Below, piece after piece: positions 14,596 through 19,898 of a stretch of DNA of 59,246 nucleotides. The stretch lies in contig QZWS01000004.1 of assembly GCA_004114245.1 (NCBI GenBank), positions 1 through 59,246 on the forward strand, in the 5' to 3' direction. The stretch is from Zoopage sp. CT-All (lineage: Eukaryota > Zoopagomycota > Zoopagomycetes > Zoopagales > Zoopagaceae). Numbering within the stretch: the stretch's first letter is position 1; every line of letters begins with the position of its first letter. Under the pieces are notes generated by a model. The model was given only the letters and a program-made list of their open reading frames with translations, had not been told where the DNA came from and did no database searches. Made by a program: the position numbers and the translations under genes.

Positions 14596-17526
14596 ATGCT
14601 CTCCGCCTTCTCGAAACACGCCACCCTGCTGCGGCGCTGCTACCCTACCCTGCCCAATGAGCCGCCGACGCGCCCGCGCGCCTCCGACCTCGCCTACCTC
14701 CGATTCTATCTCCAGTCTCGCCCAGAGAAGCTGCTCAAGGTTGGCGCGTGGCTCGAGCTGCGGGTCAAGGGCGATGTGTGGCGTGTGCGGGACGACGCCG
14801 TCGTGGTGTCGCTCGTCATCGCTGAAAATGCCGTGGAGGTGGCTGGGAGGAAGGATGTGCGATTCATTGCGACGTGTGTGATGCGCATGGTTGAGGATGT
14901 GGTGGGTGCGGTGCTGGCAGGGCATGGCAAGGCGCAGGGCGGATCCTTTGCGCGCATGGCGATATTCCAGCAGACTTGTCAGCTGGTGCTCCCTCGCCGA
15001 TGTCCATCGCCTGTGTATTGACTCCTCCGCTAGTTGGTGACGTTCTGTCGGGTGTTTGATGCGAGCACAGGATATGGCATTGATGTGGAGTTCTCCACAG
15101 TGTTCAACAACGTCGTGGCACTATTCGCTCAGCTCGCCGGCTCCTCCTCTATCGCGTAAATATTCGCACTGCTAATGACGATGACGCCATTGGATTTAGG
15201 ATCAAATTTATGACTATCAAGGTGCTGCTCAGCGTGATCACATCTGATGCTGCCAAATCCGTCGATGCCAAAATGTTTCTGCGCAAGGCGGTTCCGGCGC
15301 TCTTGGCGGCTGTGCCCTGGCATGCCACGAGCAAATTAAGATCGTAGGGCTTGATCTGCAGCTAGCACATTTGACACCGTTTGAAGGGCCGACGAGCAAG
15401 ACATTATCGTCGACAAAGCCATGCTTGCCCCAACAGATGGCTCTGATCTGACCGAGTTGCACTGCCACATCCTCTCCATACACGCCCTGTGGCTATTCCT
15501 CGCAGACTCTGGCGTCGTCAATGTCAAGCTCGTAACGGTGGCCGCCATTCGATATCTAGACGAGCTAGATGGCAAGCGCACAAAGGAATCTCTGCCTTTG
15601 GACGACGAGTTAGCCGCCGGATGGCGTGGCCATGCCCGTGAACTCTTCTCCTTCGTCTACTCCGCTGTGCAGAGACAAAGCCGTTTTGTCATTGTCATGG
15701 AAGTTCTATCGCAGCTCGAGCTCTGCAGGTTTCCTGGTGACAGTGACAAGCAATTCGGCCTGCTCGCTACAATCCGTGATCTGCAAGAAATGCCTGCCAG
15801 CGGCATCCTCGTTGATCCGCTTTCCCCAGAAAGTATCAGTGGCGCAGGGTCTTCCGCTGCCGGCATCGTTGCTTCGTCTTCGACGGCATATAAGGCTTTC
15901 TGCGGCGGGGTGAGTATTTTGGAGCTGCTTGATGTCCTCATCTCGCAGCTACTCCGCGTGATATCAGCAGATGCAATAGCAAACGAGTGCAAAGAGCCGC
16001 AGGCGTTGCTTCGCCATGCATTAATGGACTGCATAGCATCCCTTGGCTACCGAGCATACTACCCGGCTCAAGTAGCGGATGTCATGGAGGCACTGTCCCG
16101 GCGCATCGTTCTTCCTGGTGCTGCGATGATTGACGGCCAAACAGAGGCGACGGAAGTGCCCAGCGGCGTTACGGCTGATGTTAGGTCTGCAAATCGGAAA
16201 TCGGATCGTGCCACAGCGGCGCGAACGGTACTCAGTGCCGATAGCGATCAAGGCCGTTCGGTTATTCTTGACTGCATGCGGATGGTTCTTGAAGCGAGCC
16301 AAAGAGCAGAAGGCGATGGTGGTCAGAGCACCCGCTTTGCCGTTCCGACCGAGTCCGTAGACGTTTCCATGCATCTTATATGTGGCTCTGCAGGCCCATC
16401 GACACGGATATCTGCCCTGCTGTTGCTTCGGGCTTTTGCATCTAATGACACCAAGGTCAGTGCGGCGGCTCATGCAAAATTCGAGTCTGATCATACGCAG
16501 GCAACAAAGCACCTAACCGTGGATCATATTTCGTTCCGACAGCGAATTCATCGTGTTGTGTACACATGGCTTACCTGTCCAAGTGATAAAATCCCGACCG
16601 ACTACATCGCCAGCCAACAGCTTATGCGAATGCTTCTCAGTCGATTCAACGAGGATGAAGTCATGCGATCCATTCCCTTCTGTGGCTCCCTATTGCAGGA
16701 CGCCACGAGACTGGACAATCCCGAGCAGTGCTTGGCGTTGCAGACGTTTGTTCTCTCATACCTGGTGCCAGTCGGAAAGACGCTTGATAACTCGGCGGTT
16801 GCTGAGTTTGCGGCAAAGTCAATTGAAACATGCAGGACAATTGGTCAATGGCCCTTGTGGTGGCCTGCCGACATAGACTCGTGCGTATGCACGGCTGATT
16901 TCAGCAAGGCCAACACGACGACTGATCGACCAAAGGCAGCCTTTGAGACATCTGTGACGAAAAGACAGCTTGTTGATGTGCTTGCCGGCGACGCCAAGCT
17001 AGAGGCCACGTGTGCGGATGTCAGGTCCTTGCTGGAGCGCCCGTTTGCGAAAGATGCCTCGACTAGCGTGGCGCACAATAGTGCTTCGGCGTCGGACAGC
17101 GCCAATGAGACGCTGAAACTACGAATTCGGACGTCAAGGGTTCCCGAGGCAGCCAAATCTCGGCTTCCGGTTTCGTCTGTTTTCCGGACTCTAGTTGAAG
17201 ATGCCCCAATCGAGCTACCGACGCGCAAGTCGATTAAAGTGCATGATTTGCGAGCAGTGCTGGGCATGGCCAGTATGCTGCATCCACAGACGTTGAGCAG
17301 CGGCGATACCAGTGAGCCAAGTTCGAGCATCACGGCAGCCACCGAGGATGCCAACGGTGCCCATAACAATGATATTTTCCGCAAGATCGGAGCTATTCCG
17401 CGCAAGGCCAGGGTAAGAGCGAGTGCTGTGCATCGCGAGAGCTTCATATCACTGTAGGCGATTACTCAGCGCGAAACAAGCGATCTGCTGCGCAAACTCG
17501 GAACCAGCAATAGAAACGCAAGGTAA
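14596..17526 (+). CDS. EFR3: Efr3-type plasma-membrane scaffold of PI 4-kinase
   Basis: Efr3 anchors the Stt4 PI4-kinase complex (with Ypp1/TTC7) at the plasma membrane. Exons 14596-14985, 15034-15155, 15200-15343, 15387-17412 and 17458-17526 give 916 residues. The start MLSAFSKHATLLRRCYP, followed by YLRFYLQSRPEKLLKVGAWL, matches the fungal Efr3 N-terminus (a Cys-Tyr-Pro motif, then a helical repeat). The rest is armadillo-like helical sequence with long Ser/Thr-rich loops in the last third. Upstream in-frame ATGs at 14458 and 14473 precede the conserved start and were rejected. The N-terminal Cys could be palmitoylated, as in animal EFR3 (inference). The last exon rests on a good donor/acceptor pair only. 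Confidence 0.82.
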
Positions 17527-17685
17527 TTCCGTTCTAGCACGCGCTTCGCACGACTGTTCAATATTATAGGAGCACTGTATCATTAGTTCGTGCGCCGGAG
17601 ACGTGAGCATATACGGGTGAATATGTATGTTATAATGGACAAAGTGTTGGTACTCTACGTGAGAACAAGGCCACGGAGACTGAAC

Positions 17686-18282
17686 CTAACCCATTGCGTG
17701 GTCTGGCTCATCCAAATGCGACATAGCTGCACTCTGCTCCCTTGCAGACTCTTCCTCGGCGCGAGCAACACACTGGTTGACAACCTCAATGAGATGCTGA
17801 TTCTCCATGGCCGCGGCCACCCGCTCCTTGTCATTCAATTGCTTATTCACGGCCATTTCGGACTGATGAGTGCCTTCGCGCACGAATATATCAATCTGGG
17901 TGCAATTAGCACGCCCGCGACTACGAAATTAACGACAGCGCACCTTGAATCGCCGAGGCAGGGTGCGCATCAGCCGCACGCGGATGCACAGCCCGATCAG
18001 CGTTGCCATGCTGCAATGCGGAATCGTTGGCGTGAAATCCACCCGCACAACGCCCACAGTGTCGTCCACATACACATGCTCTTCCTGCGTCACATGCAGC
18101 TGCTCGAGCGTCATTGGGTGCTCGGGGTCGTTGATGGCGCGGATGAGGTCAAAGATCTCTGCGGCCGAGTAGGGGGTGAGCACATCGGAGGCAGGGCGAG
18201 CGAACCGCGGATGGGCGCGCGACTCGACGGCGTAGATGATCGGGTTGGCGTTGATGAGGCCCGAGGAGAGCGAGACGGACAT
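17686..18282 (-). CDS. CIA2: Cytosolic Fe-S assembly protein Cia2 (MIP18/FAM96)
   Basis: Targeting subunit that delivers Fe-S clusters to cytosolic and nuclear apoproteins together with Cia1 and Met18. Exons 17944-18282 and 17686-17895 (on the minus strand, split by a 48-nt intron) give 182 residues. Visible signatures are [32 protein letters not shown]-like [18 protein letters not shown] with the conserved Cys, and the C-terminal REGTHQSE...[16 protein letters not shown]. The ATG at 18282 was chosen. A longer frame begins with a non-ATG codon. The gene is convergent with EFR3, 159 bp between stops. Confidence 0.95.
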
Positions 18283-19025
18283 TGCGATGGAGAGCAATCA
18301 GATGTTTTTATTTTAGTGTGACTGTCAGCGACGGAGTCAGACTCAACAGCCTGGGACCTAACAGAATCCAGAAGAACAAAAATGTCATCAAGGTGATGAC
18401 ATGGTATTAGTAATCCAGTAGCATAAAGGAGAGCAAGCACAACTTGTCTCCTGACAAATACAGAAATTCTATACCCTGAAACTCAACAGTTGGCGCTTGG
18501 ACGAACGTGACATATCCTATGCGGAATGGCAAATCTAGACGATGCCTCTATTGTGGCTGTTGAATGTTTATACACCTTGATCCAGCACCAACCCGATCAT
18601 CCAATCATCCAATCATCCATCAAAAGAGAGAGCACTACAGCAACATCATCAGCATATTGAAAGCGCAAGACTCACAGCAGAGCAAGCACTTTGAGCCAGT
18701 TGAATTCGATGATTGCCAGCTTCTGCCAAATATGCAACTGTCAATGTCGTTGTTTGCGATTCGTCATTCACATCGCAAACCTAATCATGCAAATTAATCA
18801 AGTTGTTTTCATCAACGTATTCAAACCGTGAGCGATGGCCACTTGCAATGCATATTGGCATCGCACTTGCAGCCCGGTGCTGCCGATAGTGCTGCCAATG
18901 GCCGATCTTCTGATACTATGCAAGATTAAATAGTTCAAGTGCTGATCGGATACAAACCACTCTTATTCCATTGCACATATGCGGGGGAGTGCAAGACATC
19001 ATCGCGCAACGCTGGCAACACATAT
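18283..19025. other. Intergenic, CpG-poor
   Basis: 18400-18830 is nearly CpG-free, with a short tandem CCAATCATCCAATCATCCA. No exon is supported. The last 100 bases probably hold the 3' end of the deamidase-like gene. Confidence 0.5.
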
Positions 19026-19898
19026 TCAGATCTGGTGGCCAAAGTGGCTATTCCGTTCATACGCAGTAGGAAAACTGCATGGTTCCTCGGATTCTTCGGA
19101 AAACGCGCTGCAAATAGCAATGTATGCTGCACCCCGCATCAGCTCCACCCAGTGGTGTAGCAGAAGGGGAAAGTCCGGGCTGAGCGATGGATCCATGACA
19201 ACATATGCTGGAGGCGAGCCTTTCAAACCGTTCACGCTGACAACCAATGCAACATGAAAGTCCCATCTAGCGAATGCGGGTAAGCAAAACGCATTGCTGA
19301 CTGTTGATCGCGGAAGCATGGGAGCAATTAGCGGCCCTCCGGGTTTCTGGAAAGCATACACAGCTCGGGGCATTGTTGGCGATTGCATAATGCGCATTCT
19401 ATTAGCAGATGAAAGCTCATTTTGGGCCGCCTGATGCAGAGCTGCTTGTTTATCCCCGGGGAAATATGCGCGTTTCGATTCCACAAGCATATGAACTGCA
19501 CGACGCATGCGGGCATAACACCGGCCACTTTCAACGGCCCATGGTACGCAGCACATCACTTCGCAGAGCATTGTATTTGCCTTTACTTGGGAAGAGTACA
19601 TGTGCTGCACCGGGATGCTGGGGAAGTCGCGCAGGTATCGGTGGGCATCCAAGACCTTCCGCAGCGGCCATCTTGGGACAGTCTATAGTTACTAAGCAAT
19701 TGGTACTCAGGACATAACGATGCCAACTTTGAGCATTTCCGACGCTGTATCATCCCCTGCTGTAGTCTGCAGTGGCATCAAGTATTGGAAACGGGTAAAA
19801 ACAGGACATACAATGCCGCGGGCATAGTCAAGGATGGAGGCAGCCGGTACTTTCACACGCTGAGGTGAGAAATTAAGTGGATTTAGATACGAGGGCAT
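19026..19898 (-). CDS. Protein-glutaminase-like deamidase
   Basis: Exons 19719-19898 and 19026-19682 (36-nt intron, phase 0) give 278 residues. The C-terminal half resembles bacterial protein-glutaminase, a papain-like enzyme that deamidates glutamine in proteins. The candidate catalytic Cys lies in GRCYARMRRAV, the His in RWDFHVALVVSV and the Asp in YVVMDPSLSP, in the order and local context of the Cys-His-Asp triad of the Chryseobacterium enzyme. No signal peptide is visible, so either a 5' exon is missed or the protein is cytosolic. CpG is retained while both flanks are CpG-poor, which argues for selection. Similarity was recognised by eye and the N-terminal 100 residues match nothing I know. 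Horizontal origin is possible but unproven. Confidence 0.55.

Follow-up and report, generated by a model that had tools for sequence, protein, structure and literature searches.

A stretch of 59,246 nucleotides from Zoopage sp. CT-All (GenBank assembly GCA_004114245.1, contig QZWS01000004.1, positions 1 to 59,246; hereafter the window) carries on its minus strand one member of what the conservation among its copies presents as a multigene fungal family of protein-glutaminase (PG)-like enzymes. The same conservation argues that the window gene is real; its predicted catalytic triad is intact and its C-terminal tail is doubtful. Enzymes that convert glutamine to glutamate within whole proteins are known chiefly as bacterial secreted enzymes and effectors. 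We propose, with moderate confidence, that the fungal genes form a fast-evolving family of PG-like enzymes of the PF18626 type, that the window holds one copy, and that these enzymes would act on particular proteins inside a cell.

Domain assignment and the predicted catalytic triad

The central piece of the window gene is a 218-codon open frame, exon 3 (Table 1), which contains the motifs GRCYARM, WDFHVALVV, and VMDPSLSP. In a Pfam scan of this exon, PF18626 (Gln_deamidase_2) was the only family at E up to 1. The match, which spans the His-Asp portion of the family (profile positions 64 to 106 of 106), scored 35.6 bits with the longer query and 35.9 bits with the shorter one, against a curated cut-off of 25 bits. 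Five related copies elsewhere in the genome score 32.0–42.1 bits, likewise above the cut-off. A profile made from the six copies, A1, which was built without any bacterial sequence, found five PG sequences among the chains of the Protein Data Bank (PDB) at E values of 0.00027–0.0014 and nothing else below 0.37.

The triad of the PG of Chryseobacterium proteolyticum is Cys42/His83/Asp103 in 2zk9, as given in the available text of PMC3498931; in the precursor, the same residues are numbered Cys156/His197/Asp217, according to the available text of PMC4214742. Through the chain numbers, the published triad was put onto C55, H143, and D164 of the window frame, and these residues are invariant in 19 of 19 and in 66 of 66 aligned rows. 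The smaller alignment, which sets six fungal sequences beside 13 bacterial ones, has C55, R58, W140, H143, D164, P165, and W178 as its sole invariant columns. The larger one comprises the window copy and 65 PF18626 rows, taken from 13 of 80 named bacterial loci and from 52 of 120 listed database proteins (mostly unnamed); here the invariant positions are C55, R58, K78, L90, W140, H143, V144, D164, P165, and W178. Overall, the window frame is 16–25% identical to bacterial PG, a level too low for a tree to probe transfer. The order of the elements, helix-Cys, strand-His, strand-Asp, is that of thiol amidases. The family match, the PDB profile, and the invariant triad support the presence, in a fungal genome, of a PG-like catalytic domain whose Cys, His, and Asp align, as the preliminary description had proposed from the motifs.

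A multigene family under selection

The gene had been described as isolated. It is not: DNA, family, and protein searches of the 8.62 Mb assembly (419 contigs), whose counts for large families are lower bounds, brought out seven clear loci of one subfamily, A, and four divergent loci of another, B. Subfamily A comprises C252 (the window copy), C406a, C406b, C279, C30, C283, and C397. C406a and C406b form a head-to-head pair, 88% identical over 1192 aligned bases. This pair lies at about 1600–3700 of L005 (about 11.6–13.7 kb of contig C406), and its facing starts could share a promoter region.

Subfamily B was revealed by taking a weak match on C73 (E 0.03) as the query. Three of its loci stand in tandem on C73 (L124, 4061–8754), and the fourth is truncated by the end of C375. 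One frame of the B copies reads LPWC..GC(M/T)..(R/Q)A, and the following frame, across a putative intron, contains (F/Y)-H-V-A-P-V and FDPAL; all three C73 copies possess Cys, His, and Asp, with the arginine that follows the Cys replaced by Q in one. In two B copies, a stretch of 210 bases is identical amid divergent sequence, suggesting that gene conversion or exchange took place recently. A search for exact telomere repeats, bearing on a possible subtelomeric setting of the family, found none.

For exon 3, nonsynonymous-to-synonymous rate ratios (dN/dS) were obtained by simple, tree-free counting (Nei-Gojobori), with C397 and subfamily B left out. The window copy gives 0.38–0.53 over 177–216 codons against four other copies, and the ten pairs without C30 give 0.33–0.55; each of the five pairs that include C30 shows saturation or near-saturation at synonymous sites, with saturation in the window–C30 pair. 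These values indicate that exon 3 is under purifying selection but changing fast. Because the window frame matches PF18626 above the cut-off and its dN/dS values lie below 1, it is more than a chance open frame.

Selection after arrival had earlier been read from CpG content: the observed-to-expected CpG ratio is 0.85 in the gene and 0.31 and 0.58 in its flanks. The same contrast, however, separates the 300-nt bins of the window that lie mostly in long frames (1.09 ± 0.18, n = 111) from those mostly outside them (0.70 ± 0.44, n = 52). It is therefore ordinary for the window and says nothing of arrival; the selection itself is upheld by dN/dS.

Alignment of the copies yields a six-exon plan with short introns in most of the resolved copies, with predicted splice sites (Table 1). 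C406b is without intron 1; C283 has GG for GT at that intron, and its exon 1 frame soon meets a stop; for C30, only exon 3 was resolved, and C397 was given no gene model. The homology of the window to the other copies continues past 19026, where the preliminary description had ended the gene, to about 18614. That description also predicted one intron of 36 nt. Such an intron would keep the frame, but its 5′ splice site differs from the one common to five copies, and it is probably wrong: the alignment favours two 45-nt introns upstream of the catalytic exon and three more downstream.

Table 1. Features of the window copy, with positions counted from the first nucleotide of the window.
Feature	Position	Strand	Remarks
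Exon 1, ATG MPSYLNPLNFSP...ARGI	19812..19898	(-)	29 codons; start and frame kept in C279 and C406a; without a hydrophobic signal stretch (hydropathy)
Intron 1 (inferred), 45 nt, GTATGT..CAG	19767..19811	(-)	In C279 and C406a, a stop if read through; common frame resumes after it
Exon 2, TTAGDDTASEMLK	19728..19766	(-)	13 codons; C252, C406a, C283, and C279 are all open here in one phase
Intron 2 (inferred), 45 nt, GTTGGC..TAG	19683..19727	(-)	In five copies, starts GTT(T/G)G(C/T) and ends TAG
Exon 3, open frame	19029..19682	(-)	218 codons; PG-like catalytic domain
Codon of Cys55, predicted nucleophile (GRC-YAR)	19518..19520	(-)	Aligns with Cys42 of 2zk9; position calculated from the first base of exon 3
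Codon of His143 (WDF-H-VALVV)	19254..19256	(-)	Aligns with His83 of 2zk9
Codon of Asp164 (VM-D-PSLSP)	19191..19193	(-)	Aligns with Asp103 of 2zk9
Stop codon of the window copy	19026..19028	(-)	Family frame left just upstream; C406a, C406b, and C279 continue in frame
Intron 3, homologous stretch, 78 nt	18880..18957	(-)	Copy alignment
Exon 4, homologous stretch (APGCxCDxxxHCK)	18827..18879	(-)	Copy alignment
Intron 4, homologous stretch, 46 nt	18781..18826	(-)	Copy alignment
Exon 5, homologous stretch (VCDxxDxS..LTVxYLxxAGxH)	18676..18780	(-)	35 open codons
Intron 5, homologous stretch, 41 nt	18635..18675	(-)	Starts with GTGAGT in C252, C406a, and C406b and with GTGGAA in C279; C283 not set
Exon 6, homologous stretch (CSLF stop)	18620..18634	(-)	C406a and C406b end in CSIF stop, C279 otherwise; C283 not set

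A number of observations pull against the reading of these loci as a working PG-like family. Taken by itself, the window sequence has 8z3i, a PG, as its top PDB chain at an E value of just 0.21, with antiporter chains at 0.58, and the Cys block alone scores weakly, at 1.4–4.5 bits, when profile A1 is compared with PDB sequences. In the reverse direction, a profile of the 120 listed database PGs, with the search space fixed at 177635 sequences, reaches E values below 0.01 in three of the six fungal exons (C30, 9e-6; C406a, 6e-5; C283, 0.0003), the remaining values being 0.019 for the window, 0.058 for C406b, and 0.082 for C279. By these reverse-profile values, the window sequence matches bacterial PG only marginally when taken singly, and the assignment draws its strength from the family. 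Both structure models, whose mean pLDDT is 55–57, had PG sequences in their alignment, so the fold comparison, which is consistent with the assignment, is not independent support for it. Subfamily B is linked to A only at E values of 0.001–0.005, and the three of its exons that were scanned all fall below the PF18626 cut-off, at 18.4–20.3 bits, though PF18626 is their best family. Finally, some copies are damaged: the window copy departs from the family frame beyond the triad, close to where exon 3 ends; one in-frame TGA interrupts exon 3 of C283; and C397 is degenerate, with 40% identity over part of its length and with stops.

The last of these points raise the alternative that the family is decaying and that the window copy, like several others, is a non-functional relic, which we consider quite unlikely. 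The defects just listed fit it, as do the irregular intron 1 and early stop of C283. So do the proportions of nonsynonymous (pN) and synonymous (pS) differences in exons 4 and 5, where pS hardly exceeds pN in some pairs: pN is 0.21–0.30 and pS 0.32–0.56 over all six pairs, with the weakest contrast in C283 against C279 (0.27 and 0.32). However, C406a, C406b, C279, and C30 keep exon 3 open with the triad, and the exon 3 dN/dS values given above speak against relics. In the window copy, analysed as assembled, the tail of C279 matches positions 18941–19033 in another frame; the downstream exons there are open, and exons 4 and 5 give pN of 0.24–0.30 and pS of 0.44–0.56 against three copies. Because these exons are open and pN is below pS, the break is likely to be young or an assembly error. 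The window copy may have lost its C-terminal tail.

Proposed reaction and comparison with known enzymes

We infer catalysis, glutamine specificity, location, and target for the family from its sequences. The likeliest reaction is hydrolysis of the amide of a protein glutamine. Cys55, activated by His143 and Asp164, would attack the side-chain amide; ammonia would leave, and water would then hydrolyse the thioester to give glutamate. The targets could be the fungus's own proteins or, after non-classical export, proteins of a host or prey.

Secreted PGs have a pre-pro layout, with a signal peptide and a pro-region of 108–118 residues according to the available text of PMC9396377. In the window gene, neither is visible: no signal peptide was seen in exon 1, where the best 11-residue hydropathy is 0.84 (1.01 and 1.17 in two other copies), and only about 42 residues precede the catalytic exon, with no visible pro-region (a further upstream exon is possible). 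That exon 1 shows no signal peptide argues against a simple secreted enzyme. The PG of C. proteolyticum (2zk9, 2ksv, 3a54; PF18626) shows 18–19% identity in structural alignment, and that of Flavobacterium sp. 316 (8z3i) shows 18%. From both, the fungal family differs in that no Sec signal or pro-region is seen, in a longer insert between Cys and His, in its introns and extra C-terminal exons, and in being multigene. Since no signal peptide or pro-region is seen, turnover is fast, the Cys-His insert is longer, and extra C-terminal exons are present, a specific intracellular target is favoured over broad extracellular deamidation; the fungal PG variant is probably a substrate-specific deamidase.

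Other enzymes invite comparison. Glutamine deamidases of the SseI/PMT type have the fold class and the order of the triad in common with the fungal family, and PMT is treated as a model of a narrow-target deamidase in the available text of PMC3498931. PF18626 itself is placed, in what is available of PMC10318531, in a cluster made up largely of deamidases and transglutaminases, described as toxic virulence factors. NTAQ1 (4w79, 8jjg), as far as the available descriptions go, likewise has a Cys-His-Asp triad and a related fold, hydrolyses a glutamine amide, and is eukaryotic. It might be, then, that the fungal proteins keep the same fold and triad and, through divergence of the Cys-His insert, perform some other acyl chemistry, like that of a transglutaminase, an N-terminal-glutamine amidohydrolase, or a protease. 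We hold this to be unlikely: the sequence searches yield PG alone, both as the only Pfam family and as the only PDB family found with the profile under E 0.37, and the structural Z score to PG exceeds that to NTAQ1 by 3–4, a difference to be read in view of the PG sequences in the models' alignment.

We offer a wider version of the proposed glutamine deamidation tentatively and as rather improbable: the eleven loci in two subfamilies could be an expanding, gene-converting arsenal of intracellular or non-classically exported glutamine deamidases, of bacterial-type PG origin, that edit specific proteins of hosts, prey, or competitors.

Relatives, genomic setting, and significance

A scan for PG of a genome collection consisting of bacteria and archaea matched 83 places, of which 80 were kept. 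These are mostly from Chryseobacterium, alongside a small number of further Bacteroidota and a single Limnohabitans bin, all bacterial by title, and a long N-terminal part precedes the domain in each of the 13 loci that were read out. Among 5.8 billion proteins, searches that depend on shared 5-residue words gave nothing at E ≤ 0.01, either with the single sequence (45 candidates) or with the six-copy profile (3037 candidates). With a mixed profile built from six fungal and five bacterial rows, 231 proteins came up at E ≤ 1; PF18626 was found in all of the 120 that were listed, and the organism names shown among these, few as they are, are bacterial. The fungal-only profile scored at most 25.5 bits on the same 120 proteins, and no intermediate was found among them. 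Viral contigs searched with profiles A1 and A2 contained no relative. The earlier statement that such domains are mainly bacterial is consistent with the 80 loci and the few named proteins, though weakly tested by a collection of that composition.

That the named relatives outside this genome are bacterial might point to contamination or to a misassembled bacterial fragment, though the genome collection held no eukaryotes. The intron plan, however, is common to separate contigs (C252, C406, C279), the gene sits between eukaryotic genes, and its identity to bacterial PG is low, as given above. This explanation is close to refuted, and we give it a negligible chance.

As to those neighbours, a scan of 20 long frames showed that the window also encodes a bromodomain, PEX11, and a GDE1-like C2 domain. 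For its ATP synthase gamma chain, the best scores are to 5lqx and 5fl7, which we take to be yeast entries (Ogataea and Yarrowia), with what are presumably animal entries close behind. Between 51271 and 54356, ankyrin, GDE1-like C2, and glycerophosphodiester phosphodiesterase pieces follow serially and are probably one intron-bearing GDE1-like gene. The long frames adjoining the PG-like gene, at 15385–17454 and 17587–18318, have no Pfam match at E ≤ 0.001. No match to IFT57 was found, a weak test since matching goes exon by exon, nor was an exact 18S motif; with the gamma chain scores, the IFT57 result leads only to the guess of a non-flagellate, perhaps early-branching fungus. Rfam gave nothing at gathering scores in the window.

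In the literature searched (titles and abstract openings, with subscription journals thinly covered), no report of a fungal PG family was found. A diverse fungal family of this kind would open up a new source of protein deamidases among eukaryotes, and its two subfamilies would provide a ready comparison for the determinants of substrate choice. It would also show a PG losing the secreted pre-pro layout while gaining introns and C-terminal tails.
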